From Nitrospira sp. (lineage in GTDB: Bacteria > Nitrospirota > Nitrospiria > Nitrospirales > Nitrospiraceae): a stretch of 45,395 bases of DNA. Made by a program: the position numbers and the translations under genes. The DNA lies in the NCBI GenBank assembly GCA_005116775.1, contig SWDN01000004.1, positions 130,902-176,296 on the forward strand, read 5' to 3'. Below, in pieces: positions 2,445 to 40,766 of the stretch (the stretch's first letter is position 1; every line of letters begins with the position of its first letter). The notes beneath the pieces are model-generated. The model did no database searches and was not told the DNA's origin. It saw nothing but the letters and a program-made list of their open reading frames with translations.

Positions 2445-2804
2445 CAAGAAGGCCTGATGATATACCTAGCCCCACTCTAACCGTTTCAGTCTTTCGTTAT
2501 CGACGAAAATGCCCAAGTAGGTTAGTTGCCGGAGTTATCCAACCAAAAAGGCTTCGCCTCAATCATCTGATTTAGGGACACCAAAGAGATCGTTTTAGCA
2601 GGCTGGAATTTCGAGGGCTTGGGAGCCCGAGTTCATGCAAGTTTTGTGGACAGCAGACTTCAACGGTTTCCCGGCCTCGGCATTTGCCGGGTGCCTGCTC
2701 TGCGCCTTCATCTGAAAAAGCGAGAGGCCGTAAGGTCAGGTCATGCTGCCATAAGCGGCTCACCTATGGTAAGCTGAGCGCCGATTGGACGAGGGGGTCT
2801 GGCG
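2445..2804. other. Intergenic region between cassette and toxin-antitoxin pair
   Basis: About 360 bases with no convincing gene. Short open frames on both strands have no recognisable domain or ribosome-binding site. It marks the composition change from the AT-richer cassette to GC-rich chromosome. A small hairpin GGGCT/AGCCC lies near 2618-2632. No terminator with a T-tract was seen. Confidence 0.5.
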
Positions 2805-3062
2805 ATGACCGTGACGAATCGGATCGAGATGAACCCGAAAGTGATGCTGGGCAAGCCCGTCATCCGCGGCACACGCATTCCCGTTGAGTTGCTTCTTCGA
2901 AAGCTTGGCGAAGGTGCGACAGAGGCCGACTTGCTCGATGCCTACCCCCGTCTGACCAAGGCAGATATCCAGGCTGCGATTGGGTATGCCGCCGATACAG
3001 TGGCTCATGAGGAAACGGTCCTTGTGGGTTCTTCCGCCCCGCGGAAGCGGGTCAAACGCTAA
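2805..3062 (+). CDS. DUF433 family antitoxin
   Basis: An 85-residue protein of the DUF433 family, DNA-binding antitoxins of VapBC-like pairs. The family hallmark near the N-terminus is visible: NPKVMLGKPVIRGTRIPVE (residues 9-27), followed by a predicted winged-helix part with LLDAYPRLTKADIQAAIGYA. The C-terminus ends in a basic tail (RKRVKR). It starts at ATG 2805 behind a GAGGGGG site and is three bases away from the toxin gene, the usual antitoxin-first order. In such modules the antitoxin binds the toxin and represses its own promoter; that is known for the type, not shown here. Confidence 0.88.
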   Translation: MTVTNRIEMNPKVMLGKPVIRGTRIPVELLLRKLGEGATEADLLDAYPRLTKADIQAAIGYAADTVAHEETVLVGSSAPRKRVKR

Positions 3063-3065
3063 GCT

Positions 3066-3422
3066 GTGCGTTTCCTTGCCGATGAAAGCTGCGACTTCGC
3101 TGTGGTTCGAGCGCTTCGAATAGCAGGTCATGATGTCCATGCCATCGCAGAACTCTTGCCTGGATTGGACGACGTTGCGGTCATGAGCTTGGCCCTTCGT
3201 GAGCGGCGCGTGCTGCTGACGGAAGATAAAGATTTCGGACAGTTGGTGTATGCGAATGCAGAACCGTCCGATGGGGTTATTTTCATCCGCTATCCCGCTG
3301 ATACTCGAAAGAGCTTGCCGAATGCCGTGGTGAGCCTCATCGCAAAATCCCAGACACAATTGATTGGCAGTTTCGTGGTGCTCAGTCCTGGCCGTACCAG
3401 AATTGGTGGGCGCACGAAGTAG
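3066..3422 (+). CDS. DUF5615 family PIN-like toxin
   Basis: A 118-residue PIN-like protein of the DUF5615 family, a probable endoribonuclease toxin and partner of the DUF433 antitoxin. Acidic residues expected for a PIN-type metal site are present: Asp in the N-terminal FLADESC motif, and TEDKDFGQL around residues 52-60. The start is GTG at 3066, three bases after the antitoxin stop. It ends only six bases from the stop codon of the convergent pentapeptide gene. The RNA target cannot be inferred from sequence. Confidence 0.86.
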   Translation: MRFLADESCDFAVVRALRIAGHDVHAIAELLPGLDDVAVMSLALRERRVLLTEDKDFGQLVYANAEPSDGVIFIRYPADTRKSLPNAVVSLIAKSQTQLIGSFVVLSPGRTRIGGRTK

Positions 3423-3428
3423 TGCGCG

Positions 3429-4838
3429 CTAGCGTTTGGTCTTTGCCGTCGCGCAAGGAGCGGGGCGGCTGAGTTCCGCTGGTAATTTTGTCTGTTCGTC
3501 CACGCAGGCTGTATCGAGCTGGGATTGTGTCAAGCCTGAGACGGAAGACAGGTTGGCTCCATGCAACGTCGCGCGGTGGAGATCTGCTGCGTCGAGTTGC
3601 GCGCCGGTGAGATCGGCTCCGGATAACGTGGCGCCTCGAAGGTTCGCTTCTTGGAGGTTGGCATGGGTGAGATTGGCACGGGTGAAGTTCGAGTCCTTCA
3701 GGTCCGCTGCGACAAGATTGGCCGATTCCATGGCCGCCTCATTGAATTGTGCGTGATGGAATTGGGCTTTGGGTGCATAGATCTCGCTGAGGTCCGCCTT
3801 CGTAAAGATGGTACCGGTTCCCCTGGCGCCGATCAGCACGGCTCGGTAGAAGTGGGCGTTTCGGAAATCCGCCTGGTCCAGGACTGCCGTATACAAAATT
3901 GCCATCCGAAGTTTGCCTGACGATACCTTCGCCTTGATCAACTGCGCTCCTTCCAGATTGGCCCCTTCTAGATCAGCCTGCTGCAAGACGGCTGAACGGA
4001 AGTTCGCGTATCGCAGGTCCGCCCCGCGAAGGATGGCCTCACGCAGGTTGGCCCCCACTAGACTGGTGCCGTCGAGATAGGCGCTTTCTAAATCTGCTTC
4101 AACCATCAGAGCTCCGTCGAGCTGCGCGCCGTCGAGGAGTGCTCCTTGCAGATTAGCCTGTTGAAGCTTTGCATTGGTCATCACGGTTTGACGGAGGTCG
4201 GCTCCCATCAGATCGGTCCCTGCCAAGATGGCCCGGGCGAGGTTGGCGCCGTAGAAGTAGGTGTCGACGAAAGAGGCGTCCGTCAGATCGGCTGAGGAGA
4301 GGTCTGCTCCTTCAAAATGGGCTCGCTCGAAGGTGGATTCTTGCAGTTGTGCTCCGGTCAGGACGGCGTTATAAAGCGCCGCTTCATCGCCGATTGCACG
4401 GAACAGATTGGCGTTGGACAATCGTGCATGCCGGAGATCGGCTCCTGTCAGGTTGCTGTCTTTCAAGACGGCTCTCGTGAGATCGGCTCCCGCGAGACTT
4501 GCTTGCGACAAATCGCTTTCGCGCAGATTTGCCTGGCTGAGGAGGGTCCCTTCCAGTCGTGCTCGTTCCAGATCGGCCCCGGCGAGTTTCGCGTGGCGCA
4601 AGTCTGCCTGGCACAGATCCGCTCGCTGGTATTCCGGTTTCTCACGCTGTTCAAGCCATTGCCCATGCGATGCCACGATCGCCTGCAGCTGCTTGGATGA
4701 AATGGGCTTCTTTTTATACGGGCTGTCACAGCGGATGGGGTGGCTGCCTGCCCGGCTCGGTTCTGCTGCCTGGGTGATGGTTGGCAGGGCGAGAACGAGC
4801 GATGCCAGGATCGTGGCTAGGACGGTACGCTGCATCAT
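3429..4838 (-). CDS. Exported pentapeptide-repeat protein
   Basis: A 469-residue protein with a signal peptide (hydrophobic core LATILASLVLALP, cleavage near TQA-AEP) followed by about 370 residues of almost continuous A(D/N)LXX pentapeptide repeats, which fold as a right-handed quadrilateral beta-helix. It should be periplasmic or outer-envelope. There is no enzymatic motif; pentapeptide proteins usually act as scaffolds or protein/DNA mimics. The ATG at 4838 is chosen over the upstream TTG (4853) because GGAGAG lies seven bases before it. The C-terminus (QLDTACVDEQTKLP) resembles the closing segment often found after such repeats. The gene lies 48 bases downstream of the cytochrome c gene in the same direction and may be cotranscribed with it. 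Confidence 0.88.
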   Translation of the reverse strand: MMQRTVLATILASLVLALPTITQAAEPSRAGSHPIRCDSPYKKKPISSKQLQAIVASHGQWLEQREKPEYQRADLCQADLRHAKLAGADLERARLEGTLLSQANLRESDLSQASLAGADLTRAVLKDSNLTGADLRHARLSNANLFRAIGDEAALYNAVLTGAQLQESTFERAHFEGADLSSADLTDASFVDTYFYGANLARAILAGTDLMGADLRQTVMTNAKLQQANLQGALLDGAQLDGALMVEADLESAYLDGTSLVGANLREAILRGADLRYANFRSAVLQQADLEGANLEGAQLIKAKVSSGKLRMAILYTAVLDQADFRNAHFYRAVLIGARGTGTIFTKADLSEIYAPKAQFHHAQFNEAAMESANLVAADLKDSNFTRANLTHANLQEANLRGATLSGADLTGAQLDAADLHRATLHGANLSSVSGLTQSQLDTACVDEQTKLPAELSRPAPCATAKTKR

Positions 4839-5273: not shown

Positions 5274-5358
5274 GACAGCCTCCTAGCCAGCTTCGGGAAA
5301 CCCATGGCAGTATGTCCAACATTGAAACGTCTACTTGCCATCGACCATAAGAAATAAT

Positions 5359-5491
5359 CCTGCAGTATGATCAAACAGGCTGTCCAGCAAGGCCGCAGCG
5401 AGTGAAGGGCCGAGGCGTACCCTCTGGGGTACGTTGAGGGTCTGAACGATGCGAGAACGACGCTGGCGGACTGTTTCAGCATCCTGCTAGC
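5359..5491 (-). repeat. Palindromic intergenic element, copy A
   Basis: Read on the minus strand it starts at TAGCAGGATGCTGAAACAG and ends about 130 bases later with a loosely inverted copy of its start. The central hairpin is CGTACCC-CAGA-GGGTACG. The TAG at its start is the stop codon of the FmdB-type gene, which reads into the element in the sense orientation. Copies B and C have the same architecture at 7822 and 15340. Confidence 0.85.
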
Positions 5492-5651
5492 TTTTCTTGG
5501 TCGTGTGGGCCACAAACGAACTATAGAGCTGCTTCATCTTGCTGCTGCCGCATTTCGGGCATGTCACTTTGGTGGATTCATGTTCCTTCAGCGTCAAGAC
5601 CACCAACGATTCCTTCCCGCAGTCCAGACATGTGTAGTCGTACATGGGCAT
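5487..5651 (-). CDS. FmdB-type zinc ribbon protein
   Basis: A 54-residue protein of the FmdB family of putative regulatory zinc ribbons. It begins MPMYDYTCLDCG and has a second pair CPKC at residues 31-34; the four cysteines (8, 11, 31, 34) make a treble-clef-like zinc site. The start at 5651 is supported by GGAGGAGGG five bases upstream; a second ATG two codons later is less well placed. The open frame extends further upstream but has no start signal. Its stop codon TAG is the first three bases of palindromic element A. The cellular role of this family is not settled. Confidence 0.88.
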   Translation of the reverse strand: MPMYDYTCLDCGKESLVVLTLKEHESTKVTCPKCGSSKMKQLYSSFVAHTTKKS

Positions 5652-6087
5652 GAAGTCCCTCCTCCACCTACCAGGCTGCTGAAAATGTCCGCCAGATTTC
5701 TGAAAGGCCAAGACCAAGGCCAAGGCTGAGATGAAGAAAGTGATGTCTTCGCTCAACCGTGACCTTGACCTCAGCCTGCTGTGGTTGGTATCAGCAAGCG
5801 ATGTGCCGTCCTCGAAAAGAGGCTTGGGTGAGAGGCTGGAGGCTAGGAGACTGATATATCTTACCTCGTGCCTCTTGCGCACGCGCCTCGCCTCATTGAA
5901 GTGGCGCATTTTTCCTCAGTGGCACTTTGAGCAGTGAAGCTCAATGCGCCAGTGAAAAATGGGCGAGGGGCACGAGGCTAGAGGCAAGGGGGGCTGAATT
6001 TGAGGTCAATCTCTTTACCTCTCGCCCCTGGCCTCGTGCCCCTTGCCTGATATTTGATTGGAACGTGACTTGCCTAACTCAGCGTAT
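5652..6087. other. Intergenic region with degenerate repeat arms
   Basis: No gene supported. At 5671-5700 there is a lone end of the palindromic element (CAGGCTGCTGAAAATGTCC). From 5896 to 6047 the sequence is made of low-complexity inverted arms, including the repeat described at 5961-6047 and a GGCGCATTTTTCC / AGTGAAAAATGGGCG pair. The short frame at 5731-5937 crosses these repeats and is not considered coding. Confidence 0.55.
5961..6047. repeat. Word-type inverted repeat (GAGGCACGAGG family)
   Basis: Left arm GGGCGAGGGGCACGAGGC (5961-5978) and right arm GGCCTCGTGCCCCTTGCC (6030-6047) are near reverse complements, separated by a loop that itself repeats the GAGG and CAAGGGG words. It lies just upstream of the phosphotransferase start. 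Confidence 0.7.
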
Positions 6088-7176
6088 ATGCCGACGCTGA
6101 GGAAGCATTCACTTGAACAATATCTCCGGGCTCGCTTCGGTCCCGGTGTCACGTTGCTGTCCTGCGAGGTGATCGGCAAGGCCAGTTCGAAGGGGGCACA
6201 GAAACAGTATGGTTATGGCACCCCGGTCAAGTTGACGTTCCGCGTTGGTGGCCGCTCGCAGTCGGCCGTGCTTGAAACCATGAAGCCTGGCCCCTTCGGC
6301 CACGAGCACCAAGCGGATCGAGCCCAGGCGATCCTCTGGGACTATGACTCCTATGGGCGATTGCCACGCCATGTGAAGGCGCTTGACGTCGGTGCCTTTA
6401 CCGATGATCGGCAGCTGGTTTCGGTGGCCGAGGCGCGAGAATTCTTCGTCCTGACTCAGTGGATGGAGGGGAGCAGTTATCATCTCGACATGGAACGATT
6501 GGCCAAGGGCGGAAGGCTCCGAAAGCAGGATCGAGAGCGGACGATAGCCCTGGCACGCTACCTGGCGGAGATTCATACCAAAAAATTGCGCGACCCAGCC
6601 CTCTATCGGCGCCGGCTTCGGGAGTTGATCGGCCACGGCGAGTGCATTATGGGGCTGACCGACAGTTACCCAGACCGCTACGAATTCATCTCGGCGGATC
6701 TCTTGCGCGGGATTGAGGAAGCCTGCAACCGGTGGCGCTGGCGTTTGCACGGGGAGGGCCAGCGTTTGTCGCAGGTCCATGGAGATTTTCATCCCTGGAA
6801 TGTCTTGTTCCGGAAAGGAACGGATTTTTCAGTGCTCGACCGGTCACGAGGGGAGTGGGGGGAACCGGCAGACGACGTAACCTCGATGACGATCAACTAT
6901 CTGTTTTTCTCACTCTGTCGCTGGGGCACCTTGAAGGGTCCGTTGGAGGTGCTGTTCCGACTCTTTTGGGACAGCTATGTGGAGGCTAGTCACGATCATG
7001 CGGTCACAGAGTCGGCTGCTCCCTTCTTCGCGTTTCGAGGGTTAGTCTTGGCGAGTCCGGTATGGTACCCCAAACTGCCGATCGAGGTGCGCCGGACCAT
7101 CTTCCAATTTATCGAACGGGTGCTGGATGAGCCGCGCTTTGATCCGTCGAGGGTAAACGAGTACTGTCGGGAATGA
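6088..7176 (+). CDS. APH-type phosphotransferase
   Basis: A 362-residue cytoplasmic protein with the aminoglycoside phosphotransferase / protein-kinase-like fold. The catalytic loop HGDFHPWNVL lies near residues 231-240, and the metal-binding Asp follows in VLDRSRGEWGEPADDV. The wording LDRSRGEWG replaces the usual DFD-type sequence, so the substrate group is probably not a classical aminoglycoside. The ATG at 6088 is preferred; a TTG at 6058 is in frame but lies against the repeat block, and neither has a clear ribosome-binding site. The next gene is an APS-kinase-like P-loop kinase in the same direction, suggesting a shared small-molecule phosphorylation or activation pathway. Substrate unknown. 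Confidence 0.82.
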   Translation: MPTLRKHSLEQYLRARFGPGVTLLSCEVIGKASSKGAQKQYGYGTPVKLTFRVGGRSQSAVLETMKPGPFGHEHQADRAQAILWDYDSYGRLPRHVKALDVGAFTDDRQLVSVAEAREFFVLTQWMEGSSYHLDMERLAKGGRLRKQDRERTIALARYLAEIHTKKLRDPALYRRRLRELIGHGECIMGLTDSYPDRYEFISADLLRGIEEACNRWRWRLHGEGQRLSQVHGDFHPWNVLFRKGTDFSVLDRSRGEWGEPADDVTSMTINYLFFSLCRWGTLKGPLEVLFRLFWDSYVEASHDHAVTESAAPFFAFRGLVLASPVWYPKLPIEVRRTIFQFIERVLDEPRFDPSRVNEYCRE

Positions 7177-7178
7177 AT

Positions 7179-7281
7179 GAGCTGTCAGCGATCAGCTTTC
7201 AGCTCTCAGTCGGAAACCCGACAGCAGCAGAAAACACCGCTCTGTTCACAGGCTGAAAGCTGACAGCTGAAGGCTGATAGC
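7179..7281. repeat. Word-type inverted repeat (CTGAAAGCTGA family)
   Basis: The left arm is composed of CAGCGATCAG-CTTTCAGCT-CTCAG words (7179-7210) and the right arm (7250-7281) of GCTGAAAGCTGACAGCTGAAGGCTGA-type words. It fills the gap between the phosphotransferase and kinase genes. Similar blocks recur at 17020 and 19840. Confidence 0.75.
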
Positions 7282-7293
7282 TTGGTGGTATTC

Positions 7294-7821
7294 ATGAGTC
7301 AATCCCAAAGCTTTGCCATCTGGATCACCGGCCTGCCGGCATCGGGCAAGAGCACGATTGTCTCTGCCCTGAAGCCCCAGCTCGAAGGGCTTGGGTTAGC
7401 AGTCGAGGTGTTGGAGTCCGATGAGGTCCGACGGGTTATCACGCCGACGCCGACCTACTCAGAAGCGGAACGAGATCTCTTCTACCGCGCACTGGCATTC
7501 ACCGGACAGAAGCTCGTGGCACATGGTGTGACCGTGATCTTCGATGCGACGGCAAGCCGCCGGGCCTATCGGGACTTTGCAAGGTCCGTCATCCCACGGT
7601 TCATCGAAGTGTCCGTAGAATGTCCCCTCGCGACTTGCATGGAACGAGACCGGAAAGGGACCTATCGAAAGGGTCAGGCGGGTGAATCTTTTACAGTCCC
7701 TGGGCTCCAATCTCCCTACGAAGCGCCGGTCGCCCCGGACCTCCGCATCGACAGCACTCTCACTTCATCAGGCGACGCGGCACGCCAGATCTTGGACCTG
7801 GTCAAAGCGAACTTCCTATAA
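7294..7821 (+). CDS. Adenylylsulfate-kinase-like P-loop kinase
   Basis: A 175-residue P-loop kinase of the APS kinase (CysC) type. The Walker A is GLPASGKST (residues 10-18). The PLxxCxxRDxKG motif is present as CPLATCMERDRKGTYRKG, as is the late SPYEAP motif. The canonical LDGDNVR is changed to LESDEVR and the canonical FISPYR to FDATASRRAYR, so the acceptor may not be adenylylsulfate. In canonical sulfate activation CysC makes PAPS; no sulfurylase gene is seen nearby. The ATG at 7294 is chosen, although an in-frame TTG at 7282 lies inside the preceding repeat. The stop TAA directly abuts palindromic element B. An APS-kinase annotation by family is reasonable; the specific substrate is uncertain. 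Confidence 0.8.
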   Translation: MSQSQSFAIWITGLPASGKSTIVSALKPQLEGLGLAVEVLESDEVRRVITPTPTYSEAERDLFYRALAFTGQKLVAHGVTVIFDATASRRAYRDFARSVIPRFIEVSVECPLATCMERDRKGTYRKGQAGESFTVPGLQSPYEAPVAPDLRIDSTLTSSGDAARQILDLVKANFL

Positions 7822-7951
7822 CCGGATGCTGAAAAAGTCCGCCAGCGGCGTTCTCGCCTTGAAAGCATCCTCAACGTAGCCCAGAGGCTACGCCTCCGGT
7901 GCTTTCATCGGCTGCGGCCTTGCGGACAGCCTTTTTGAGCATCCTGCTAGC
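7822..7951 (+). repeat. Palindromic intergenic element, copy B
   Basis: It begins CCGGATGCTGAAAAAGTCC immediately after the kinase stop codon and ends CTTTTTGAGCATCCTG. The apical hairpin is CGTAGCC-CAGA-GGCTACG, which differs from copy A by a compensatory base-pair change. An inner arm pair GAAAGCATCC / GGTGCTTTC is also visible. Confidence 0.88.
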
Positions 7952-8134
7952 CTGGCTCATCAAGACACGCTGCTGGTCTTTCAGAACCAATGCGGAATCT
8001 CTCGCACTCATCCTGAGAATTCTTTCTCGCCCTGCTCGGTGCAGTCCATGAAGCTGAGCGTCTCGCTCCTGTTGACTCGGAGGGTCTCGTGAACTTACTC
8101 TGCGAATGTATACTAGCCCGAGGAACTTTAAGGC

Positions 8135-9169
8135 ATGAAGACCTCTATGCCATTAGGCCGGCGAGAGTTTACACCAGGGGCCTTGCTCCGCAATCCACAT
8201 TTCATGACCGTGCTCCCAGGCCGTTGGCCTCGCCGAGCGCTTCTTGCCGGAGTCCCGACAGAGTCGCGGCTCTTCACCACCGAGGCGCACACCCAATTGC
8301 TCGGCTTCTGCCACTGGCAGCCAGATCGCACCGCATGCCAGACCGTGGTACTGGTGCATGGACTGGAAGGCTCCAGCGAGTCTCACTATATGCGCGGTAT
8401 CGCAGCAAAAGCCTATCGCGCAGGATGCAACGTAGTCCGGATGAACCAACGTACGTGCGGGGGAACCGAGCACCTCACACCGACGCTGTACAACAACGGC
8501 TTGAGTCAGGATTATCGAGCCATCGTTCATGAGTTGGCGCGCATGGATGGACTCAATCGCATCTGGCTTGTCGGCTATTCATTGGGAGGGAATCTCGTCC
8601 TAAAAGCAGCTGGAGAGGCCGGTTCGTCAGAAGCCGCGTTGGCCGGCACGATTGCGGTCTGCCCGACCATCGATCCGGCGCAATGCGCCAGGGCATTGGA
8701 GGCGCCTCGGAACTGGGTCTATCACCTTCACTTCTTGACCCAACTCAAGAGGCGCATGCGCCGGAAAGCGGCGCTCTTTCCCGGCAAGTGGGATCTCGCA
8801 GGACTCGACCGCATTCGCATCCTCAGCGAATTCGAGGACCGCTACACCGCCCCGGACGGGGGGTACGCCAGTGGCGCCGACTACTACGATCGATCGGGCG
8901 CATGCAATGTGCTCGACTCCATCGCCGTCCCCACCCTCATCATCACGGCACAAGACGACCCCTTCATTCCTTACTCCATGTTCACGGTGCCGGTGATTCA
9001 GCGCCACCCAAAGATCCGGGTGATTGCGCCTCGTCACGGAGGCCATTGCGGGTTCTTCCAATTGGCCCGAAACGGAGAAGATCCCTACTGGGCGGAGAAC
9101 CGGATTATGGATTTCCTGCTAGAACAGTCTTGCCCTACCGAGTCTTCCAACGTGTCAAGGCACACTTGA
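8135..9169 (+). CDS. YheT-family alpha/beta hydrolase
   Basis: A 344-residue protein of the YheT subgroup of alpha/beta hydrolases. The oxyanion region HGLEGSSES and the nucleophile elbow GYSLGGN (Ser149) are clear. The acid is likely in ITAQDDPF and the catalytic His in RHGGHCGFF near the C-terminus. Family members are putative esterases of unknown physiological substrate. The start ATG at 8135 follows AGGAACTTTAAGG. There is no signal peptide, so it is cytoplasmic. It stands alone in direction and converges with the USP gene ending at 9557. Confidence 0.88.
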   Translation: MKTSMPLGRREFTPGALLRNPHFMTVLPGRWPRRALLAGVPTESRLFTTEAHTQLLGFCHWQPDRTACQTVVLVHGLEGSSESHYMRGIAAKAYRAGCNVVRMNQRTCGGTEHLTPTLYNNGLSQDYRAIVHELARMDGLNRIWLVGYSLGGNLVLKAAGEAGSSEAALAGTIAVCPTIDPAQCARALEAPRNWVYHLHFLTQLKRRMRRKAALFPGKWDLAGLDRIRILSEFEDRYTAPDGGYASGADYYDRSGACNVLDSIAVPTLIITAQDDPFIPYSMFTVPVIQRHPKIRVIAPRHGGHCGFFQLARNGEDPYWAENRIMDFLLEQSCPTESSNVSRHT

Positions 9170-9556
9170 TCGAGATAGTCCTGCTTTAATGCCGTGAGGC
9201 CAGCGATTCGACGGCAATGCGTAACCGCGTGGTCAGCTTCGTCGCCGCAACCGGTTCTTCTGCCTCACGCGCGACTTCTTGGACTAGATGGGGAAATCTC
9301 TGCAGAATGCTCAAAAAAGCCGGACATCTCACCCGCCCAACCTCGGCGGATATTTCACCCACCCACCCTGAGTCTGCCAAGACAGACTCTTTGCCCCGGG
9401 ACGCGCCATTCCACAGGCAAGGCCGCAATAATCTATCCTTCAAGGGGGCGGAGGGAGCAGGCAGATTGTTCTTCACTGCGCGCATCGGACGAGCACATTC
9501 TTATCGTGCGCGTTCTGCGAGCAAGAAGAACGGTCTGCCTGCTCCCTCGCCCTGCT
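9170..9556. other. Convergent intergenic region with structured repeats
   Basis: Lies between the 3' ends of the hydrolase and the USP gene. It contains a half-element at 9303-9350 (CAGAATGCTCAAAAAAGCC followed by CATCTCACCCGCCCAACC, shared with the long element at 11864-12282) and a large stem-loop at 9453-9546. A minus-strand frame across 9186-9485 is built partly from repeat sequence and is not called. Confidence 0.6.
9453..9546. terminator. Long stem-loop, possible bidirectional terminator
   Basis: The arms 9453-9474 and 9525-9546 are 22 bases each and pair at 20 positions (GGGAGCAGGCAGA... with ...TCTGCCTGCTCCC). The 50-base interior contains a smaller GCAC/GTGC hairpin. It sits between two convergent genes, where termination of both would be useful, but there is no T-tract. 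It could also be a degenerate miniature mobile element or an RNA. Confidence 0.5.
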
Positions 9557-10426
9557 TCATACATGAAACGCCAGCACCGGACAGGGAGTCTTGTGCAAGA
9601 CAGCATGGGACGTGCTGCCGAGCACGAAGCGGGTGATTCCCTTCCGGCCCCTTGTGCCCATCAAAATCAAATCCGATCGCAGCGTGGCCGCTTGTTGCAG
9701 GATCATGGTAGAGGGTATCCCGACCACGGCGACTCCATGCGCCTGATAACCGATGGCGCGTAGACGTTCCGCCACACCCTCAATGTACTCGGTTTGTTTC
9801 TCCAGCATCTCGGTGGCGGCGGCAGCGGCAGCTTCTGCTGCACCGATCGTCCATGGCGGCTCTGTCCAAGGGAAGACCGTCATCAACGTCAACTCGACTG
9901 CTTCGTGAAACGGCTTGAGTTGCAGAAAACGAAATGCGGCTTCCGCGTCTGGTGGACCTTCGAGAGGCAGGAGTATCTGTTTCATGGCTTTGACCGGGCC
10001 GTTCACGATCAACGTGGCGCAAGGGGCCAGGGTCAGGATGTGGTGCGACACACTGCCGAGCACCCGTTCTTTGACAGGACCAAGGCCCCGCGCTCCCATC
10101 ACGATGAGATCGGCTTTCTGCGCCTCAGCCATCGACAGGATCACTTCTGTAGGAGATCCGATTTCAAGGTGTTTCACCGTGGAACCTGCATGCAGCGGGA
10201 GGAGGGACTGAACCCGTTTGAGCAGCCGCTCGCCATCTTCTCGCATGCTTTGCTCAAGGGACTTATAGAGTTCCTCTGCTGCTTCCGGCATCATTTCAGC
10301 GTACGCCGGTCTGGGGACATTCAACGCATGAAGCAGGGTAAGCCGCTCCGCCCGGGCTATGTATTTCATGAGGTGAACGGCCTCATAGGAATTATCCGAT
10401 CCGTCGACCGCAAGTACTATGTTCAT
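9557..10426 (-). CDS. Tandem-domain universal stress protein
   Basis: A 289-residue protein made of two UspA domains. Each domain shows the ATP-binding signature G-2x-G-9x-G(S/T): GARGLGPVKERVLGSVSH in the first (about residues 114-131) and GTRGRKGITRFVLGSTSH in the second (about residues 257-274). It begins with the typical strand MNIVLAVDGSDNS. USPs are cytoplasmic and support survival under starvation, energy or oxidative stress; direct function here is unknown. The start ATG is at 10426 with GGAG eight bases upstream. It is the only USP of the window on the minus strand. Confidence 0.92.
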   Translation of the reverse strand: MNIVLAVDGSDNSYEAVHLMKYIARAERLTLLHALNVPRPAYAEMMPEAAEELYKSLEQSMREDGERLLKRVQSLLPLHAGSTVKHLEIGSPTEVILSMAEAQKADLIVMGARGLGPVKERVLGSVSHHILTLAPCATLIVNGPVKAMKQILLPLEGPPDAEAAFRFLQLKPFHEAVELTLMTVFPWTEPPWTIGAAEAAAAAATEMLEKQTEYIEGVAERLRAIGYQAHGVAVVGIPSTMILQQAATLRSDLILMGTRGRKGITRFVLGSTSHAVLHKTPCPVLAFHV

Positions 10427-10455
10427 CGAAGACGCTCCTTGAAAGACCGTTATGT

Positions 10456-10531
10456 GGTTTGTCTGGTTTTTGGTTGAACGAAACTAACCAGCTAAACAAA
10501 ACAAATCAGATCAACCAGATAACCAGACAGG
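10456..10531. repeat. Word-type inverted repeat (AACCAGA family)
   Basis: The left arm TTTGTCTGGTTTTTGGTTGA matches the reverse complement of the right arm TCAACCAGATAACCAGACAGG except for a two-base indel. The loop repeats the CTAAACAAAACAAATC words. Confidence 0.72.
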
Positions 10532-10584
10532 TAGTTTCGCACCGTACAGAATCTCAGCAAGTCCAATGCCGTCTTGCGAGTTTG

Positions 10585-10640
10585 GAGTTGTGAGTTCTAA
10601 GTGTTGAGTTCTAAGTCACAACTCATCACTCAACACTGAA
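10585..10640. repeat. Word-type inverted repeat (AGTTGTGAGTT family)
   Basis: GAGTTGTGAGTTCTAAGTG followed by TTGAGTTCTAAGTC forms one arm and ACAACTCATCACTCAACACT the other. The arms are permutations of the same short words. Confidence 0.68.
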
Positions 10641-10861
10641 AATTCCTTGCCCGCTGTCGCCTTCTGCTACAGCAGAGAAATTCGAGCTGTAGCAGGACAC
10701 CCCTGCTCACAATGCAAAGAGCCGATGGCAGATGGCGCATGGTCTGACAAGAAAGACGAAGTCTATGTTTCCGCTAAGCTATCAGCCTTCAGCCTTCAGT
10801 CTAGATCGGGTGGCACTGGCCTTGCTGATAGCGGGAATGAGTCATTCCTTTGGGAGATCGC

Positions 10862-11347
10862 ATGGCGGAACCGTTCTGTACCAGAATGCTTGTACCGGTG
10901 GATTTTTCTTCTTGTTCGGAAGAAGCCTTTCGCGTCGCCTTGACCCTTGCCCGGACCTTTCAGGCTGAATTGCTGTTGCTGCACGTGATCGACACAAGCG
11001 CTCTGGCGGCTTTCAACCGCCTTGGGTTGCTGGCTGTGCCCTCCGACGCACAAGCCCAGAAGCGGCGCCTAAGGCATCACGCCCGTCTGAATACGAGGCG
11101 GTTGCTCGATTCGGAAACGACCAAGGGCGTGAAAATCACCAGGGTGCTGGTGGAAGGAGTGCCTTTTGTGGAGATTGCAAAAATAGTCCGGGTGGAAAAA
11201 GTCAACCTCGTGGTATTGGGCAGTTATGGGGGGCGGTCGGATAGTGTCGATAAAATATTCTTCGGCAGTACGGCAGAACGGGTGGTGCGGACCGCAGGTT
11301 GTCCGGTGTTGACTGTTCCGCTGCCGCCTAAGCCGAGTCGTGCGTGA
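10862..11347 (+). CDS. Single-domain universal stress protein
   Basis: A 161-residue single UspA domain. It starts with RMLVPVDFSSCSEEA and carries the nucleotide-binding signature GSYGGRSDSVDKIFFGSTAE near residues 122-141. The ATG at 10862 is chosen because GGGAG lies five bases before it; a TTG four codons earlier is in frame. The last codons overlap the left arm of a GTGAAATGTGAAACG inverted repeat, so the C-terminus and stop lie at a repeat boundary. It probably shares a transcript with the cupredoxin gene 83 bases downstream. Confidence 0.9.
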   Translation: MAEPFCTRMLVPVDFSSCSEEAFRVALTLARTFQAELLLLHVIDTSALAAFNRLGLLAVPSDAQAQKRRLRHHARLNTRRLLDSETTKGVKITRVLVEGVPFVEIAKIVRVEKVNLVVLGSYGGRSDSVDKIFFGSTAERVVRTAGCPVLTVPLPPKPSRA

Positions 11348-11402
11348 AATGTGAAACGTTTCGGAGGAAGAGCATTCGGCAGCCCTACATTTCACGTTTC
11401 AC
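11344..11402. repeat. Word-type inverted repeat (GTGAAACGTGAAATG family)
   Basis: Left arm GTGAAATGTGAAACGT (11344-11359) and right arm ACATTTCACGTTTCAC (11387-11402) pair at 14 of 16 positions plus one wobble. The left arm contains the stop codon of the USP gene. Confidence 0.75.
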
Positions 11403-11430
11403 CTTTTATGGTTCTGAGAAGGAGGAATAC

Positions 11431-11856
11431 ATGAACAGTCAGAAGTTGCAGTGGGGATGGGTTCTTGTGCTTGCTGTCACGTGCGGGTTCTGGTGGGAAG
11501 CGACAGAGCCGATTTTCGCTCAGTCGGAACAAGTCGTCGAGGTCACGATCAAGGATTTCAAGTTCGTCACGAAGCAGGGAGTGCTCCGCCTCGGGTTTCC
11601 CACGGTGATTAAGGTCAAGAACGAAGCTGCCGAACGGCACGATTTTGGCTCGACCATGTTCGAGGGCCTTCCGACTCAGATCGAGAAGGATGGGGTGATT
11701 GTGTATGGTCGAGGGTTGGGTGGAGTGTTTCTCGATCCCAAGCGGGATGCGGCCATTCGGTTCAACATGTCGCGGCCCGGCCGTCATGAGTTCCGGTGCT
11801 CGATCCATCCGAATATGACGGGGGAGTTGCTGTTACTCAGCGCAGAGGCGGTGTAA
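11431..11856 (+). CDS. Exported cupredoxin-like copper protein
   Basis: A 141-residue periplasmic protein with a signal peptide (residues 1-30, cleavage near IFAQS). The mature part is a cupredoxin fold with the classical type-1 copper ligand pattern: His70 (ERHDF), Cys123 (FRCS), His126 (IHPN) and Met129. It probably carries electrons or binds copper in the periplasm. The start is firmly placed by AAGGAGG ahead of ATG 11431; an upstream extension of the frame crosses a repeat and is rejected. It is followed after seven bases by the long terminal-inverted-repeat element. Confidence 0.88.
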   Translation: MNSQKLQWGWVLVLAVTCGFWWEATEPIFAQSEQVVEVTIKDFKFVTKQGVLRLGFPTVIKVKNEAAERHDFGSTMFEGLPTQIEKDGVIVYGRGLGGVFLDPKRDAAIRFNMSRPGRHEFRCSIHPNMTGELLLLSAEAV

Positions 11857-11863
11857 AAATTTG

Positions 11864-12282
11864 CAGGTTGCTGAAAAAGGGGAGGGATGGAGCCTGATGA
11901 TCTTCTGTGCTCGCGCAACGCGCGGCCTCAGAAGGATGGGGAGAGAGCGGCCAGGTGCCCTTCTTGCTCGCAGAACGCGCACGGTGAAATGGTGCTCGTT
12001 CGATGCGCGCAGTAAATGGCGACCTTGGCCACTCTCTTGAAGAGATGTAAAGAGGATTGGAAGGCCCTCGCCCGGGCTAGTGGCACGTCTCGGCGTGCCA
12101 GTGGGTGGGCGGGTGAGAAAGTTGTGCGCAGTTGAAGATCAATCAGCCCCCATCCTTAGAGAGAGAACGAGCAAGCTTGGAAGAACTATTGTAGTCGCTC
12201 GTTGCGGCCTTGACTGCGGAACGGTGCGTCTTGGCGCGCCGGGGTTGGGCGGGTGAGATGTCAGGCCTTTTTGAGCAGCCTG
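11864..12282. mobile_element. 419-bp element with terminal inverted repeats (MITE-like)
   Basis: Bounded by CAGGTTGCTGAAAAAGG on the left and CCTTTTTGAGCAGCCTG on the right; these are inverted copies with only a few mismatches and match the ends of the 125-nt palindromic elements. Inside, two related segments occur: GTGGCACGTCTCGGCGTGCC with GGGCGGGTGAGAAAGT (12080-12122), and GGTGCGTCTTGGCGCGCC with GGGCGGGTGAGATGT (12223-12261). No transposase frame is present, so it would be non-autonomous. The region contains no supported gene. Confidence 0.65.
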
Positions 12283-12307
12283 CGGAGAATGGGAGGAGAC
12301 AAAGCCA

Positions 12308-13264
12308 GTGATCAAGCGGATTTTATTTGCCACTGATTTTTCACGATGGGCTCGGCGGGCGGAGGACTATGCCTGCGCACTGGCCTGTTCGTGGAAGGCG
12401 AGCTTGACGGTCCTTAGCGTCGCGGAATTTCCACCGGGGCTCAATCCCGATTACCCCATCAATCAGCAATACTTGGCTGATCTGCTCAAAACCGCATCGT
12501 CGAAGCTCGTCGACCTCAAAGGCCGTGCGGAGCGGCGCGGGATTGCGGTCACGACCAGGGTGGCTACGGGAATTCCAAGCGAAGAGGTGATTGCCGCGGC
12601 GCGGGCTGAGGGGTCAGACCTCATCATCGTAGGGACCAGGGGGAAGACCGGCCTTGCGCACGTGTTGTTGGGCAGTACTGCCGAGCGAGTCATTCGCGGA
12701 GCCCCTTGCCCCGTGCTGGCGGTGAAGACGGAGCCGGAGGACAATGAAGATGAGGGTGTCCCGTCGAGACCTGTCACACCGGAGCGTATCCTCGTGCCGG
12801 TCGACTTTTCCGATTGTTCGCTCGATGCATTGGCGTATGCCTCGGTGGTGGCGCAACAGGCAGGGGCTTCTCTCATGTTGCTGCATGTCTTGGAACCGGT
12901 GTCGTATGGGTTGGACTTTACCCTCGATTTCAGCAGGACACGGCAAGCGGAATCCCAGATCTGGACGAAACGACTGGAGGAGTTGGTGTTCTCCCATCAG
13001 CGTCCAGATATGCCGGTGGAGTATCGATTACGAGGGGGCTTGCCGGCCGATTCAATCTTAGACTCAGCCCAGACTCTGCCCTGCGACCTCATCGTCATGG
13101 GCACGCACGGGCGCCGTGGGATTTCACACACCATCTCCGGCAGCGTCGTGGAAGCCGTCTTGCGAAAAGCCCGCTGTCCTGTCGTCGCGGTGCGTAGTCA
13201 AAAGTTTGGACCAAGTCATCGGCAGACGGTTCCGGAAGACATCTCTCCCACGAATCATCATTAA
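12308..13264 (+). CDS. Tandem-domain universal stress protein
   Basis: A 318-residue protein with two UspA domains joined by an acidic linker (EPEDNEDEG, near residue 145). The signatures are GTRGKTGLAHVLLGSTAE in the first domain and GTHGRRGISHTISGSVVE in the second. The start is GTG at 12308 behind GGAGGAG. The gene ends 14 bases before the DUF2934 gene, so it probably leads the operon that continues into formate dehydrogenase. It is likely cytoplasmic and nucleotide binding; its target is unknown. Confidence 0.92.
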   Translation: MIKRILFATDFSRWARRAEDYACALACSWKASLTVLSVAEFPPGLNPDYPINQQYLADLLKTASSKLVDLKGRAERRGIAVTTRVATGIPSEEVIAAARAEGSDLIIVGTRGKTGLAHVLLGSTAERVIRGAPCPVLAVKTEPEDNEDEGVPSRPVTPERILVPVDFSDCSLDALAYASVVAQQAGASLMLLHVLEPVSYGLDFTLDFSRTRQAESQIWTKRLEELVFSHQRPDMPVEYRLRGGLPADSILDSAQTLPCDLIVMGTHGRRGISHTISGSVVEAVLRKARCPVVAVRSQKFGPSHRQTVPEDISPTNHH

Positions 13265-13278
13265 CCAAGGAGTCTGCG

Positions 13279-13503
13279 ATGACAACCGCAACGAAACCCA
13301 TAAAGAAAATTAAACTTTCGACACGAAACCCTTTGGGAGCATCGCCACAAGCCATCGAATTACCAGATGGCATGAGGGAACGGATTTCGAGGAAAGCGTT
13401 CAAATTGTGGGAAGAGCGAGGCTATCGGGACGGACACGATCTTGAAGACTGGCTCGATGCCGAGGCCATCGTGATGGAAGAAATTCATGAAGCTCGCGAG
13501 TGA
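13279..13503 (+). CDS. DUF2934 family small protein
   Basis: A 74-residue protein with the DUF2934 motif in its second half: RISRKAFKLWEERGYRDG, then HDLEDWLDAEA. The family is a short helical domain of unknown role, frequent in proteobacterial and related genomes. AAGGAG precedes the ATG by six bases. Its 3' end overlaps the next gene by 17 bases in another frame, so the two are coupled. Position between a USP and the formate dehydrogenase genes suggests stress-linked regulation, but this is inference. Confidence 0.85.
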   Translation: MTTATKPIKKIKLSTRNPLGASPQAIELPDGMRERISRKAFKLWEERGYRDGHDLEDWLDAEAIVMEEIHEARE

Positions 13504-14869
13504 AACGACAGCCGGTCTTTGGGTGCCTCTTGTCCCTTTGCTCTACGCGTTGCTCGCTCGGTTGGAATCCCTTTCGTTGGAGCCGGGGGTGGCTGTCCAG
13601 CGGCAGATCGCACTGCAGCTCGCTCTCCAGCCCTATTTTGAGGGCGGTGAGGGGGCGCTGTTGTTCCCGCTACCACAGGAAACGGAATTAGCCAACCTTT
13701 TACTTTACGCCGACTTCTACCCGCAGGACGGGCAACTGACGTTGATCGAGCAGTTGCGCGACGTCATCACAGAGCATATTCCACAAGAAGAGCGTGAGTG
13801 GCTGGATCCGCTGAAACATTCCTATCTCGATCTGGCAGAATTTCTGTCGATGGACGAGCAGGGCCAGCGGTTGATTTTCCGATCGCTCGGAGATGCGCGG
13901 GTCTATCGCGTGCCGGATGGGCCATTCCGCAAGGAACTGCGGCCTGGGCAAGTGCTTCTCACGCGGCTGATCCGCGAGCCGGGCGATGTGGAGTGGGAGC
14001 GGGCGGTGATTGCCGGCGCCGTGATCGTATTGTCCAACGAGGATGGAAAGGGCCTGCTGAACGCCACGCTCGACTACCGGCGGCAGGTAGAAATTTCCGC
14101 CGGGTCCTTCGAACTCGGCGAGTGGCCGGAATTCGCCAAGCGCTATGGGCATGTACTGTTGTGGACCTTTGCCCGTATGCGGTTTGCCGCACTCATTGAA
14201 GCCGTGAACAGTATTCACTATGTGGCAGAAGGGGGGCAGCCCTATCTCTATGCCTTGGCCCTCTACGATCATGCCGAGTACGGATACATGAATGACATGC
14301 TCGCAGGCCTTGAAGGATTCGAGCGTGAAGCGGCGATCTCCTCACTCAATGTAACCGCAATCTCGAAGAACGCGCAGCACTTTGTGCAGCGAGAGGTGGT
14401 CGGCGCCGTAGAGTCCGCGGTGGTTGCAAGACTGATCCTCACGGCGCCCCAGCTGTGGGTGGAGTGCGATTCGCGAGAGCGGCTCGATGCCGTCAAGCAC
14501 AAGCTGGCGGCGACGTTCGGATTCTCTCTTCATTTCCGTGGCGAGACCTGCACGCCACCGCCTCGACACATCAAGGAGTCGGACTTGGCTACCGAAGAGC
14601 CTCTGACCTTGACGATTACGGCTGAAGAAGGCCGAGCGTTCGTAAACAGTTTCATGGAAACTCTCTACTTAGAGTGGGCGGAACGGGCTTGCCCGTCGCT
14701 CGGGGATCACATGCCGCGCCACGTCGCCACGTCAGCAGCCGGCCGCGAGCAGGTTGCTGCCTTGATTGCCGACATGGAGCGCCACGACCCAGGTGTGAGG
14801 CGCATGGGGCAGGCATCGTTTGATTACAACAAGCTGAGAGCCCATGTTGGGTTAGATGAGGTCAGTTGA
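13487..14869 (+). CDS. Unknown 460-aa protein of the formate dehydrogenase operon
   Basis: A 460-residue protein I do not recognise. No signal peptide or clear transmembrane helix is seen; the N-terminal LWVPLVPLLYALLARLESL is amphipathic rather than membrane spanning. The middle (about residues 110-300) contains aromatic-rich helical segments (GHVLLWTFARMRFAAL, YLYALALYDHAEYGYM). No cysteine-cluster or nucleotide-binding motif is present. It overlaps the upstream DUF2934 gene by 17 bases and the downstream fdsG by one base (TGATG), so it is translated together with the dehydrogenase subunit. A role as accessory or regulatory factor of formate dehydrogenase is inferred only from this coupling. 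Confidence 0.82.
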   Translation: MKLASETTAGLWVPLVPLLYALLARLESLSLEPGVAVQRQIALQLALQPYFEGGEGALLFPLPQETELANLLLYADFYPQDGQLTLIEQLRDVITEHIPQEEREWLDPLKHSYLDLAEFLSMDEQGQRLIFRSLGDARVYRVPDGPFRKELRPGQVLLTRLIREPGDVEWERAVIAGAVIVLSNEDGKGLLNATLDYRRQVEISAGSFELGEWPEFAKRYGHVLLWTFARMRFAALIEAVNSIHYVAEGGQPYLYALALYDHAEYGYMNDMLAGLEGFEREAAISSLNVTAISKNAQHFVQREVVGAVESAVVARLILTAPQLWVECDSRERLDAVKHKLAATFGFSLHFRGETCTPPPRHIKESDLATEEPLTLTITAEEGRAFVNSFMETLYLEWAERACPSLGDHMPRHVATSAAGREQVAALIADMERHDPGVRRMGQASFDYNKLRAHVGLDEVS

Positions 14870-15339
14870 TGACGACTCGGCACAAGACTCAGCTCGCTGA
14901 GACACTCAAAACCGGCCGCCCTGTGCCACCAGACAAGCCGAACATCCTCAAGACGCTTCTGACTGTGCAGTCTACTCTGGGCCATGTGCCTGCGAATGTC
15001 ATCTCTCAAATTGCGCAGGTGTTAGGTGTGACGGATGCTCAAGTTGCCGGTGTCTTGTCCTATTATCCCGACCTCCGGACTCAGTCACCCGGCCGACACC
15101 TCATTCGTGTCTGCACGGGCGAATCCTGCACAGCTAACCATGGCGGGCTGGTCCTTCGCGCAATTCAAGATTGCGTCCGCAATGTAATCGGAGACAGCGC
15201 GCAGTCAGAGCGGTTCACTGTGGAACGGATGTCCTGCGCGGGGAACTGTGCAGTATCGCCGACCGTGATGATCGATGGAGACTTCTGTGGACGAGTGAGT
15301 CCTTCCGATGTGTCGTCGCTTCTGGAGCGCTATAGATAG
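14869..15339 (+). CDS. fdsG: NAD-dependent formate dehydrogenase gamma subunit (NuoE-like)
   Basis: A 156-residue thioredoxin-like [2Fe-2S] subunit homologous to NuoE/HoxE. The four cluster cysteines are Cys82 and Cys87 (CTGESC) and Cys123 and Cys127 (CAGNC). The N-terminal helical part (ILKTLLTVQSTLGHVP) is typical. In Fds-type complexes this subunit passes electrons with the FMN subunit FdsB. The ATG at 14869 overlaps the preceding stop by one base. The stop TAG (15337-15339) is followed directly by palindromic element C, which separates fdsG from fdsB. Confidence 0.92.
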   Translation: MTTRHKTQLAETLKTGRPVPPDKPNILKTLLTVQSTLGHVPANVISQIAQVLGVTDAQVAGVLSYYPDLRTQSPGRHLIRVCTGESCTANHGGLVLRAIQDCVRNVIGDSAQSERFTVERMSCAGNCAVSPTVMIDGDFCGRVSPSDVSSLLERYR

Positions 15340-15461
15340 CAGGATGCTGAAAAAGTCCGCCAGCGGCGTTCTCGCGTCGCTCAGAGGCTCAACGTACCGA
15401 AGCGTACGCCTCGTCTCTTCGCTCGCTGGGGCCTTGCTGGACAGCCTTTTTGAGCATCCTG
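15340..15461 (+). repeat. Palindromic intergenic element, copy C
   Basis: It starts CAGGATGCTGAAAAAGTCC right after the fdsG stop and ends CCTTTTTGAGCATCCTG-like. The apical stem here is CGTAC/GTACG. It lies inside the formate dehydrogenase operon, so a structured RNA would form between fdsG and fdsB. A further 79 bases lead to the fdsB start. Confidence 0.88.
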
Positions 15462-15540
15462 AGGCATTGTTGACATCGGCATCACTATGTAAACTCCAAC
15501 GGTGTATTGTGCATAAACTGAATTTCCCGGAGCCTGATAG

Positions 15541-17049
15541 ATGACGACGACGCGCTGCTATCTTGCCAACGATACCTCTTCTCGTGCGGCAGGCGCTGAA
15601 CGACTCGCCGAAGCTTGGAGTGGACGTCCTGAGATTCAACTGATTCGTACGTCCTCGCGCGGGGCGTTCTTTCTCGAGCCGATGGTGGAGCGAGATACGC
15701 CCAAAGGGCGTGAAGCCTGGTTCAACGTGGCTCCGGATGACTTGCCTCTTATCGTGGGCGGCGTGGGTGGAACGCCGGTGGCAGAGATTCCGTTCTTGCA
15801 ACAACAAACCCGGTTCACCTTTGCCAACTTCGGCATGACCGAGCCGCTCGCACTCGATGAGTATCAATCGCGGGGCGGACTCAAGGGGTTGGCGGCGGCA
15901 CGGAGCCTTTCGCCTGAGGCGATTGTCGAAGAGTTGCGCATCTCGCGATTGCGCGGTCGCGGAGGTGCGGCGTTTCCTGTGTGGAAAAAGTGGCAAGTCG
16001 CACAGCAAACCAAGTCGGAGCAGAAGTATGTGGTCGCGAATGCCGACGAAGGGGACGCCGGCACCTATTGCGATCGGATGATTATGGAGGGCGATCCCTT
16101 TCGATTGATCGAAGGGATGTTCATCTGTGCCAGGGCGATCGGGGCGACCCGTGGCTATATCTATTGCCGGTACGAATATCCGGCGGCAGCTCGGGCCATG
16201 CGGTTTGCGATTCAGAAGGCGCGCGAAGAGGACCTGCTGGACTGCGACGACTATCCATTCGATCTTGAGGTGGTGATCGGAGCAGGCTCGTATGTCTGCG
16301 GCGAAGAAACAGCCTTGCTGGAATCGCTGGAGGGGCGCCGTGGTGTGGTGTTGGCGAAGCCTCCTTACCCGGCTGAATCCGGACTCTACGGCAAACCGAC
16401 GATCGTCAGCAATGTTCTGACGTTTGCGACGATTCCCAGCATCCTGGCAAGAGGCGGTGCGTGGCATGCCTCTCTCGGCACCGAAGACTCGCGCGGAACG
16501 ATGGCGTTGCAGCTTGGTGGCCGGGTGAAGCAACCGGGGTTGGTAGAAATTCCCTTTGGCCTGACGCTCCGTGATGTCTTAGATCGATTCGGCGGTGGGA
16601 TGGCGCCTGGTTCGCGGTTCAAAGCCGTGCAGGTCGGGGGGCCGTTGGGGAGCCTGTTTCCTGAATCGAAACTCGATATCCCTGTTTGCTATGACGCATT
16701 TGCCAAGGCCGGAGCCATTCTTGGGCATGGTGGGATTGTTGCCTACGATGATGAAACAAATATGGTCGAGCTGGCACGGCATTTCATGGCGTTCACCGCG
16801 GACGAATCATGCGGAAAATGTACGCCCTGCCGGATTGGATCGGTGCGGGGTCGTGAAATTCTCGAGCATATCCAAGCGGGGGAAGGAACTGCTGAATCGT
16901 TGAATCTCCTGAGAGAACTTGGAGAGACAATGAAAGCGACCAGCCTCTGTGCGTTGGGAGGGCGTGCTTCTTACCCGGTGTTGACCGCCATGGAACATTT
17001 TCCGAATGAATTCAGAAGCAAGCTGTCAGCATTCAGCAGTCAGCAATAA
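15541..17049 (+). CDS. fdsB: NAD-dependent formate dehydrogenase beta subunit (NuoF-like)
   Basis: A 502-residue flavoprotein subunit. The N-terminal 115 residues match the FdsB-type thioredoxin-like extension (SSRGAFFLEPMVE). The NuoF core follows: FMN/NAD-binding GRGGAAFP at about residues 139-146 and NADEGDAGTY near 168-177. The [4Fe-4S] ligands are Cys424, Cys427, Cys430 (SCGKCTPC) and Cys470. It accepts electrons from FdsA and reduces NAD+. GGAG precedes the ATG. Oddity: the last nine residues (LSAFSSQQ end) are encoded by the left arm of a word-type intergenic repeat, so the C-terminus has been replaced or extended by repeat sequence. Confidence 0.93.
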   Translation: MTTTRCYLANDTSSRAAGAERLAEAWSGRPEIQLIRTSSRGAFFLEPMVERDTPKGREAWFNVAPDDLPLIVGGVGGTPVAEIPFLQQQTRFTFANFGMTEPLALDEYQSRGGLKGLAAARSLSPEAIVEELRISRLRGRGGAAFPVWKKWQVAQQTKSEQKYVVANADEGDAGTYCDRMIMEGDPFRLIEGMFICARAIGATRGYIYCRYEYPAAARAMRFAIQKAREEDLLDCDDYPFDLEVVIGAGSYVCGEETALLESLEGRRGVVLAKPPYPAESGLYGKPTIVSNVLTFATIPSILARGGAWHASLGTEDSRGTMALQLGGRVKQPGLVEIPFGLTLRDVLDRFGGGMAPGSRFKAVQVGGPLGSLFPESKLDIPVCYDAFAKAGAILGHGGIVAYDDETNMVELARHFMAFTADESCGKCTPCRIGSVRGREILEHIQAGEGTAESLNLLRELGETMKATSLCALGGRASYPVLTAMEHFPNEFRSKLSAFSSQQ

Positions 17050-17081
17050 GCTGATCGCTGAGAGCTGATTGCTGAAAGCTG
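17020..17081. repeat. Word-type inverted repeat overlapping fdsB 3' end
   Basis: AGCTGTCAGCATTCAGCAGT-CAGC is the left arm and GCTGATCGCTGAGAGCTGAT-TGCTGAAAGCT the right. The left arm lies inside the coding region of fdsB and includes its stop; the right arm ends six bases before the fdsA ATG, close to its ribosome-binding site. Confidence 0.78.
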
Positions 17082-19839: not shown

Positions 19840-19926
19840 AGCTGTCAGCGATCAGCCGTCAGCTTTCAGTGGACGGATCTCAAAGATAGTTCGAGCTGAC
19901 CGCTGAGGGCTGAAAGCTGATCGCTT
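19840..19926. repeat. Word-type inverted repeat between fdsA and FNT gene
   Basis: The left arm GCTGTCAGCGATCAGCCGTC-AGCTTTCAG and the right arm GAGCTGACCGCTGAGGGCTG-AAAGCTGATCGC are permutations of the same words in opposite orientation. It occupies nearly the whole gap between the two genes. Confidence 0.75.
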
Positions 19927-22034: not shown

Positions 22035-22072
22035 CAGAAGGACTTGGGCGTTCATATGAAAGGAATCAAGCC

Positions 22073-22951: not shown

Positions 22952-23047
22952 CAGGGAGAAGACAAGCGCTGCCGCCGAACGCATGGCGCAGCCGGTATCG
23001 CCTGTCGATTCGAACCTGAAGAGAGCGTAACTGAAAGGATGGGCACC

Positions 23048-23911: not shown

Positions 23912-23944
23912 CCGAACGAGCACTGTGGGGGAGTTCCGTGCGGT

Positions 23945-40719: not shown

Positions 40720-40766
40720 TCTTTAAGAGCGTCTAGCATCTGGCGGGATTTTTCAGCATCCTGCTA
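40720..40766 (-). repeat. Truncated palindromic element at ABC exporter stop
   Basis: Read on the minus strand: TAGCAGGATGCTGAAAAATC then CCGCCA, the same left end as copies A to C, starting at the stop codon TAG of the exporter gene. The right half is missing; a short CCGCCA/TGGCGG pair could still form a hairpin. Confidence 0.75.

Follow-up and report, generated by a model that had tools for sequence, protein, structure and literature searches.

Four genes end against the same palindromic repeat

The window, a stretch of 45,395 nucleotides from a Nitrospira genome, contains four genes whose stop codons lie directly against copies of one palindromic sequence: an FmdB-type gene (copy A), an APS-kinase-like gene (copy B), fdsG (copy C) and an ABC-exporter gene (copy D). 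All four junctions, which had been noticed in the first-pass annotation, are confirmed as described there. In each case, the left end of the repeat, CAGGATGCTGAAA (with a CCGG variant in copy B), directly follows the stop codon in the sense orientation, and the four copies are distributed over both strands. The full palindrome is present in copies A, B and C, and is lacking from copy D. The features are as follows.

5283-5486, minus strand: copy A, element of 200 bp (5287-5486) with its right target duplication
5283-5286, minus strand: copy A, right target duplication CTAG
5287-5362, minus strand: copy A, tail and degenerate right end
5363-5486, minus strand: copy A, palindrome
5487-5490, minus strand: copy A, left target duplication CTAG, the TAG being the stop codon of the FmdB-type gene
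5487-5645, minus strand: FmdB-type gene, open reading frame (stop codon TAG, 5487-5489)
7285-7821, plus strand: APS-kinase-like gene, open reading frame (stop codon TAA, 7819-7821)
7818-7821, plus strand: copy B, left flank ATAA, the TAA being the stop codon of the APS-kinase-like gene
7822-7946, plus strand: copy B, palindrome with left end CCGGATGCTGAAAAAG
14869-15339, plus strand: fdsG, open reading frame (stop codon TAG, 15337-15339)
15336-15339, plus strand: copy C, left target duplication ATAG, the TAG being the stop codon of fdsG
15340-15536, plus strand: copy C, full element of 197 bp, comprising the palindrome (15340-15461), the tail and the right end AATTTCCCGGAGCCTG
15537-15540, plus strand: copy C, right target duplication ATAG, followed at 15541 by the start codon of fdsB
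40739-40763, minus strand: copy D, a left-end fragment only, of ~25 bp, CAGGATGCTGAAAAATCCCGCCAGA
40764-40767, minus strand: copy D, left flank ATAG, the TAG being the stop codon of the ABC-exporter gene
40764-42494, minus strand: ABC-exporter gene, open reading frame (stop codon TAG, 40764-40766)

For copy B, neither a tail nor a right end was recognised, and the CTAG that follows the palindrome (7947-7950) does not match the left flank, ATAA. A partial further left end, consisting of CTAC and then CAGGCTGCTGAAAATGTCCGCCAG, is located at 5671-5700, just upstream of the FmdB-type gene.

Anatomy of the element and its target

The palindrome, of ~124 bp, is just the left part of an element of ~200 bp, which is laid out as YTAR, CAGGATGCTGAAAAAG, palindrome, a tail of ~60 nt, GTTTTTCCGCAGCCTG and again YTAR. 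Copies A and C both run for ~75 bp past the palindrome to a second, inverted end, after which the stop-containing 4-mer is encountered once more; thus, copy A reads CTAG-200 bp-CTAG and copy C reads ATAG-197 bp-ATAG. The element begins with CAGGATGCTGAAAAAG on the left and ends on the right, in inverted orientation, with CAGGCTGCGGAAAAAC; the tail is diverged, and the right end GTTTTTCCGCAGCCTG is succeeded by CTAG or a variant thereof. The spacing between left and right ends peaks at 180-220 bp, and is mostly 195-203 bp; the typical element is short and has no transposase gene. Across 94 full elements, the outer 4-mers are identical in 34, compared with a mean of 21.4 in 5000 shuffles, the largest of which gave 32, and the matching pairs include rare ones, namely, CTAA/CTAA, TTAG/TTAG, ATAG/ATAG and CTTG/CTTG.

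Taken with an empty site and with IS5-family partners (see below), these paired flanks show that the target is YTAR, most often CTAG, and that 4 bp are duplicated on insertion. The same three lines of evidence support the suggestion, made in the first-pass annotation, of insertion at a TAG-containing target. A one-sided target without duplication, which had been considered when the palindrome alone was in view, was dropped once the tail and the true right end had been found.

A one-sided target would also apply if the repeat were a REP/BIME-type palindrome mobilised by a RAYT (Y1 transposase), with recognition of a conserved tetranucleotide restricted to the left side. The palindrome does have a conserved CTAG/TAG at its left end and no constant target-like flank at its right arm, and both the high copy number and the extragenic position are reminiscent of REP elements. 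However, YTAR is also present at the true right end, ~75 bp beyond the palindrome, and the two-sided 4-bp duplication and the IS5-type ends contradict such an origin. Moreover, a Y1 transposase is absent from the genome of the window, from a second genome, G001, and from 14 of 32 Nitrospira genomes, and the ends of the element do not border the Y1 genes that were examined in other members of the genus. We consider this origin to be highly improbable.

Abundance and distribution

Allowing up to three mismatches, a 16-mer of the repeat finds 13 sites in the window, against 0.39 expected, and a 17-base end finds 168 sites in the genome to which the window belongs (an incomplete assembly of 2.67 Mb, 70% complete), against seven for a reversed control pattern. 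The repeat is present in 39 of 41 genomes, i.e. that of the window and 40 relatives. The exact 26-base left end was found in at least 80 named records, all of them Nitrospira, Nitrospiraceae or Nitrospirae/Nitrospirota among the matches listed. Copies are dispersed on either strand; they follow conserved genes, and orthologs of these genes exist that lack the element. The window has no match in Rfam above the curated gathering score, and a search of the literature for this repeat in Nitrospira found no description of it. It is very common in a major nitrifying (nitrite-oxidising) genus, and there affects the annotation of 3'-UTRs, genome assembly and repeat masking.

An empty site and orthologous junctions

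A related Nitrospira genome (G006, locus L356) preserves the site behind the FmdB-type gene in its empty form, AGCTAGGAGG (AAGAGCTAGGAGGCCGTGATG), whereas the window has AGCTAG-element-CTAGGAGG (AAAAGCTAG-element-CTAGGAGGCTGTCATG) at this position; it follows that the duplicated CTAG holds the FmdB stop codon. Four junctions (FmdB, fdsG, C9:99264 and that of a CDGSH-type gene) were compared with their orthologs in related Nitrospira, using 16 to 24 loci for each. In nearly all species, the C-terminal residue of the protein is the same with or without the element, which indicates that the element does not create the end of the gene. At C9:99264, the species without the element have TGA stop codons, and those that bear it have TAG or TAA. 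At these same junctions, other species have elements with the same left end but a different interior, or with partial deletions. Additionally, at the FmdB junction, loci L359, L362 and L371, among others, have kept the left end with other repeats behind it, of the GTTTGTCTGGTTGATC and GAAACGTGAAAAGTGAAAC types.

The constancy of the protein ends bears on the idea that the element itself supplies the stop, in other words, that the TAG arises by truncation when the element enters a gene near its 3' end, which redefines where the gene stops. Such an effect would be in keeping with the 4-mer in front of the left end, which conforms to YTAR in almost every case, including places without a gene end; nevertheless, it is at odds with the unchanged C-terminal residues at the four junctions, and only seven of 93 copies are read into in other frames. 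We regard it as very unlikely.

A probable source of transposase

Two insertion sequences, of 1318 and 1319 bp, in the related genomes G008 and G015 have CAGGCTGCGGAAAAAC at both ends without a mismatch, and are flanked by CTAG/TTAG and CTAG/CTAG, respectively. Against the ends of these insertion sequences (loci L397 and L400), the right end of the element matches at 16 of 16 positions, and the left end at only 13 of 16. Their transposase (L400:796-1896, minus strand) matches the NCBIfam model for the IS5 family, NF033581 (280.6 bits; cut-off 140), as well as Pfam DUF772 and DDE_Tnp_1. Related elements of 1.36-1.38 kb with ends CAGGCTGTTGACAAAC are also located between CTAG flanks. Relatives of the IS5-type transposase are encoded in 10 of 32 genomes of the genus; they were not found in the genome of the window (70% complete) or in G001 (99% complete). 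Judging from the shared ends and target, it is most likely that IS5-family transposases spread these copies.

Pairs of ends 430-4000 bp apart were also inspected as a possible autonomous element and rejected, the best case proving to be an IS110-type insertion within a copy of the palindrome. At this locus (L232:2586-3880), the central loop of the palindrome is occupied by an ORF (2740-3813) for a transposase that, by its sequence, is of the IS110 type. REP and attC hairpins are known targets of IS110 elements, and the loop of the present hairpin may be another.

We therefore interpret the repeat as a non-autonomous, IS5-type MITE of ~200 bp that duplicates a YTAR target, stop codons themselves being among its targets, and assign this reading a probability of about 0.88. 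Insertion takes place at YTAR, mostly at CTAG, with duplication of 4 bp. Since both TAA and TAG occur within YTAR, either of these stops with C or T in front of it is itself a target; after the duplication, stop codon and reading frame are unimpaired on the left, and the 4 bp recur beyond the right end. Because stop and frame are restored in this way, insertions at stop codons would be harmless and would persist, and insertions inside genes would be removed by selection. Several observations count against the MITE reading: a near-symmetric target does not predict the orientation bias at stops, and the docked share of all copies exceeds the non-coding expectation (see below for both); a related transposase was found neither in the genome of the window nor in G001; the palindrome is far better conserved than the tail with which it is expected to have moved; copy B has mismatched flanks and an unrecognised right end; and the left end agrees with the insertion sequence end at no more than the 13 positions given above.

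Docking at stop codons and the supply of target sites

The frequency of docking was determined on four contigs (1.05 Mb) of the genome of the window and on 0.79 Mb of G001, with genes called by a simple hexamer-model script rather than a standard annotator. Exact docking at a sense stop codon is seen for 12 of 35 left ends in the former and 23 of 58 in the latter, amounting to 35 of 93, whereas non-coding sites with the same 4-mers would give 16% (p = 0.005) and 25% (p = 0.009), respectively. An excess at stop codons, on which the first-pass annotation had made its reading depend, is thus present, the docked share of all copies exceeding the expectation for all non-coding sites by a factor of ~1.6 to 2.2. 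Similarly, in a set of 80 named loci, picked regardless of stop codons, a stop lies exactly at the junction for 30 of 73 left ends. Docking by the palindrome's inner right arm is rare (1 of 36, against 13 of 38 left ends, in the four-contig sample).

The picture changes when only sense copies within 50 nt of the 3' end of a gene are considered: the docked share is then 0.57 against 0.52 expected (p 0.4) in the genome of the window and 0.66 against 0.64 (p 0.5) in G001. As observation and expectation agree, the zero distance follows from the positions of YTAR near gene ends, and the excess that is left at the scale of the whole genome reflects the fact that other non-coding positions are avoided. 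An alternative estimate of the enrichment, 50-67% docked against 16-25% expected, was rejected as inflated: undocked copies lose their 4-bp flank through decay, stop codons preserve it, and counting all copies erased the excess near 3' ends. It had been argued that random insertion cannot give zero-distance docking; this is incorrect, since the target itself contains a stop codon. A simple and general reason is thereby provided for the presence of small mobile elements exactly at gene ends, namely, that a transposase with TAA or TAG in its target finds stop codons and the duplication repairs them, and the same test is applicable to other YTAR-targeting families before docking at stop codons is read as function.

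Orientation bias

In the unbiased samples, ~35 docked copies are in the sense orientation and five are antisense, docking via the right end (p = 8 × 10−7 for 36:5); the antisense count is approximate, as right ends are often decayed. Among the 94 full elements, for which the search pattern favours intact left ends, the left end docks a sense gene in 36 and the right end docks an opposing gene in 10. The constant orientation claimed from the window is therefore a strong bias and not a rule: its four copies are all in sense, on both strands, and antisense docked copies exist elsewhere. The bias is unexplained, as a near-symmetric target does not predict it.

Conservation of the hairpin and a possible role at 3' ends

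The interior of the palindrome is 80% identical between copies, compared with 43% for the adjoining tail (correlation 0.11). In 36 diverse copies, 96.3% of the cells in the hairpin alignment are paired and compensatory changes are observed in 12 of 22 pairs, values that were reached in none of 500 shuffles; moreover, nearly all copies retain a G.G mismatch within the outer stem. Maintenance or homogenisation thus acts on the hairpin separately from the remaining element, be it through function, recombination or template switching, and this homogeneity, like the sense bias, is left unexplained by the MITE reading.

The first-pass annotation had proposed a 3'-UTR module, and the hairpin could accordingly be a domesticated 3'-end module that ends transcripts, protects the 3' ends of mRNAs or acts on terminating ribosomes, in which case the sense copies directly behind stop codons would have been kept for their usefulness. 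The strong sense bias and the compensatory changes are as such a module would have them; additionally, the folding of copies B and C is much more favourable than that of shuffled sequences (z −4.9 and −4.2, respectively), a U-rich tract comes after the inner stem, and a convergent gene faces docked copies more often than the baseline (46% versus 25%, p 0.009). Undocked copies are, however, equally often convergent (29 of 58), and copy A shows no folding advantage over expectation (z −1.4). Copy C lies between fdsG and fdsB of one operon, and strong termination at that point would have a polar effect. A comparison of the 35 docked with the 58 undocked copies revealed no difference in left-end identity, right-arm preservation or folding energy, which argues against any docking-dependent function; docking, therefore, provides no evidence of a function in the 3'-UTR. 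With the docked fraction near 3' ends equal to the stop fraction of YTAR sites there, the target alone accounts for the zero distance, and a 3'-UTR module as the cause of docking is unsupported. On balance, we hold a domesticated 3'-end module to be unlikely.

A combined history would be that the element arrived by IS5-type transposition, and that the hairpin then became a separately maintained unit, staying alike at hundreds of sites in many species as the remainder of the element decays, with sense copies at stops favoured through an action of the hairpin on the 3' end of the upstream gene or on translation termination; we deem this doubtful. A modest case for domestication, or for separate homogenisation of the hairpin, persists on account of the sense bias and the uniform palindrome, both of which pose concrete, testable questions.

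Relation to known systems

The element resembles IS5-family insertion sequences and IS5-derived MITEs in its terminal inverted ends, which match those of the Nitrospira insertion sequences with an NF033581 transposase, in its 4-bp YTAR duplication, in its size of ~200 bp and in its lack of a transposase gene. It differs from them in carrying a 124-bp hairpin, one arm of which is formed by the left end, in having many copies exactly at stop codons, and in that related transposases are missing from most of the genomes examined. Correia elements, RUP, BOX and SPRITE are small, non-coding palindromes, served by a transposase in trans, that can form hairpins in transcripts; the Nitrospira element is likewise small and non-coding, was probably moved in trans as well and may form such hairpins, but its ends and targets are different. 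With REP/BIME sequences it shares the character of a high-copy extragenic palindrome that is often found beside stop codons, although it is larger, has no linked RAYT and is bordered by a target duplication on both sides. REPs of Escherichia coli that lie within 15 nt of a stop codon have been discussed (PMC12306157). A review of MITEs (PMC10969869) treats small mobile palindromes and makes no mention of stop codons.

Other repeats in the window

Related elements at 11864-12282 and 9303-9348 have the common ends CAGGTTGCTGAAAAAG...CTTTTTGAGCAGCCTG and other interiors (GGGGAGGG... and CACCCGCCC...); sharing of ends by elements with differing interiors suggests that chimeric elements form a family around a common pair of ends. 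A separate short intergenic repeat, of the AGCTGTCAGCGATCAGC type, is found at 7180-7282, 10770-10800, 17021-17051 and 19840-19870. At 25136-25885, there is a 150-bp tandem repeat of approximately five units, 76-83% alike, which overlaps a predicted gene on the minus strand. Finally, two adjacent genes at 22057-23912 are ~75% identical in DNA over several hundred bases, and are likely to represent a tandem gene duplication.
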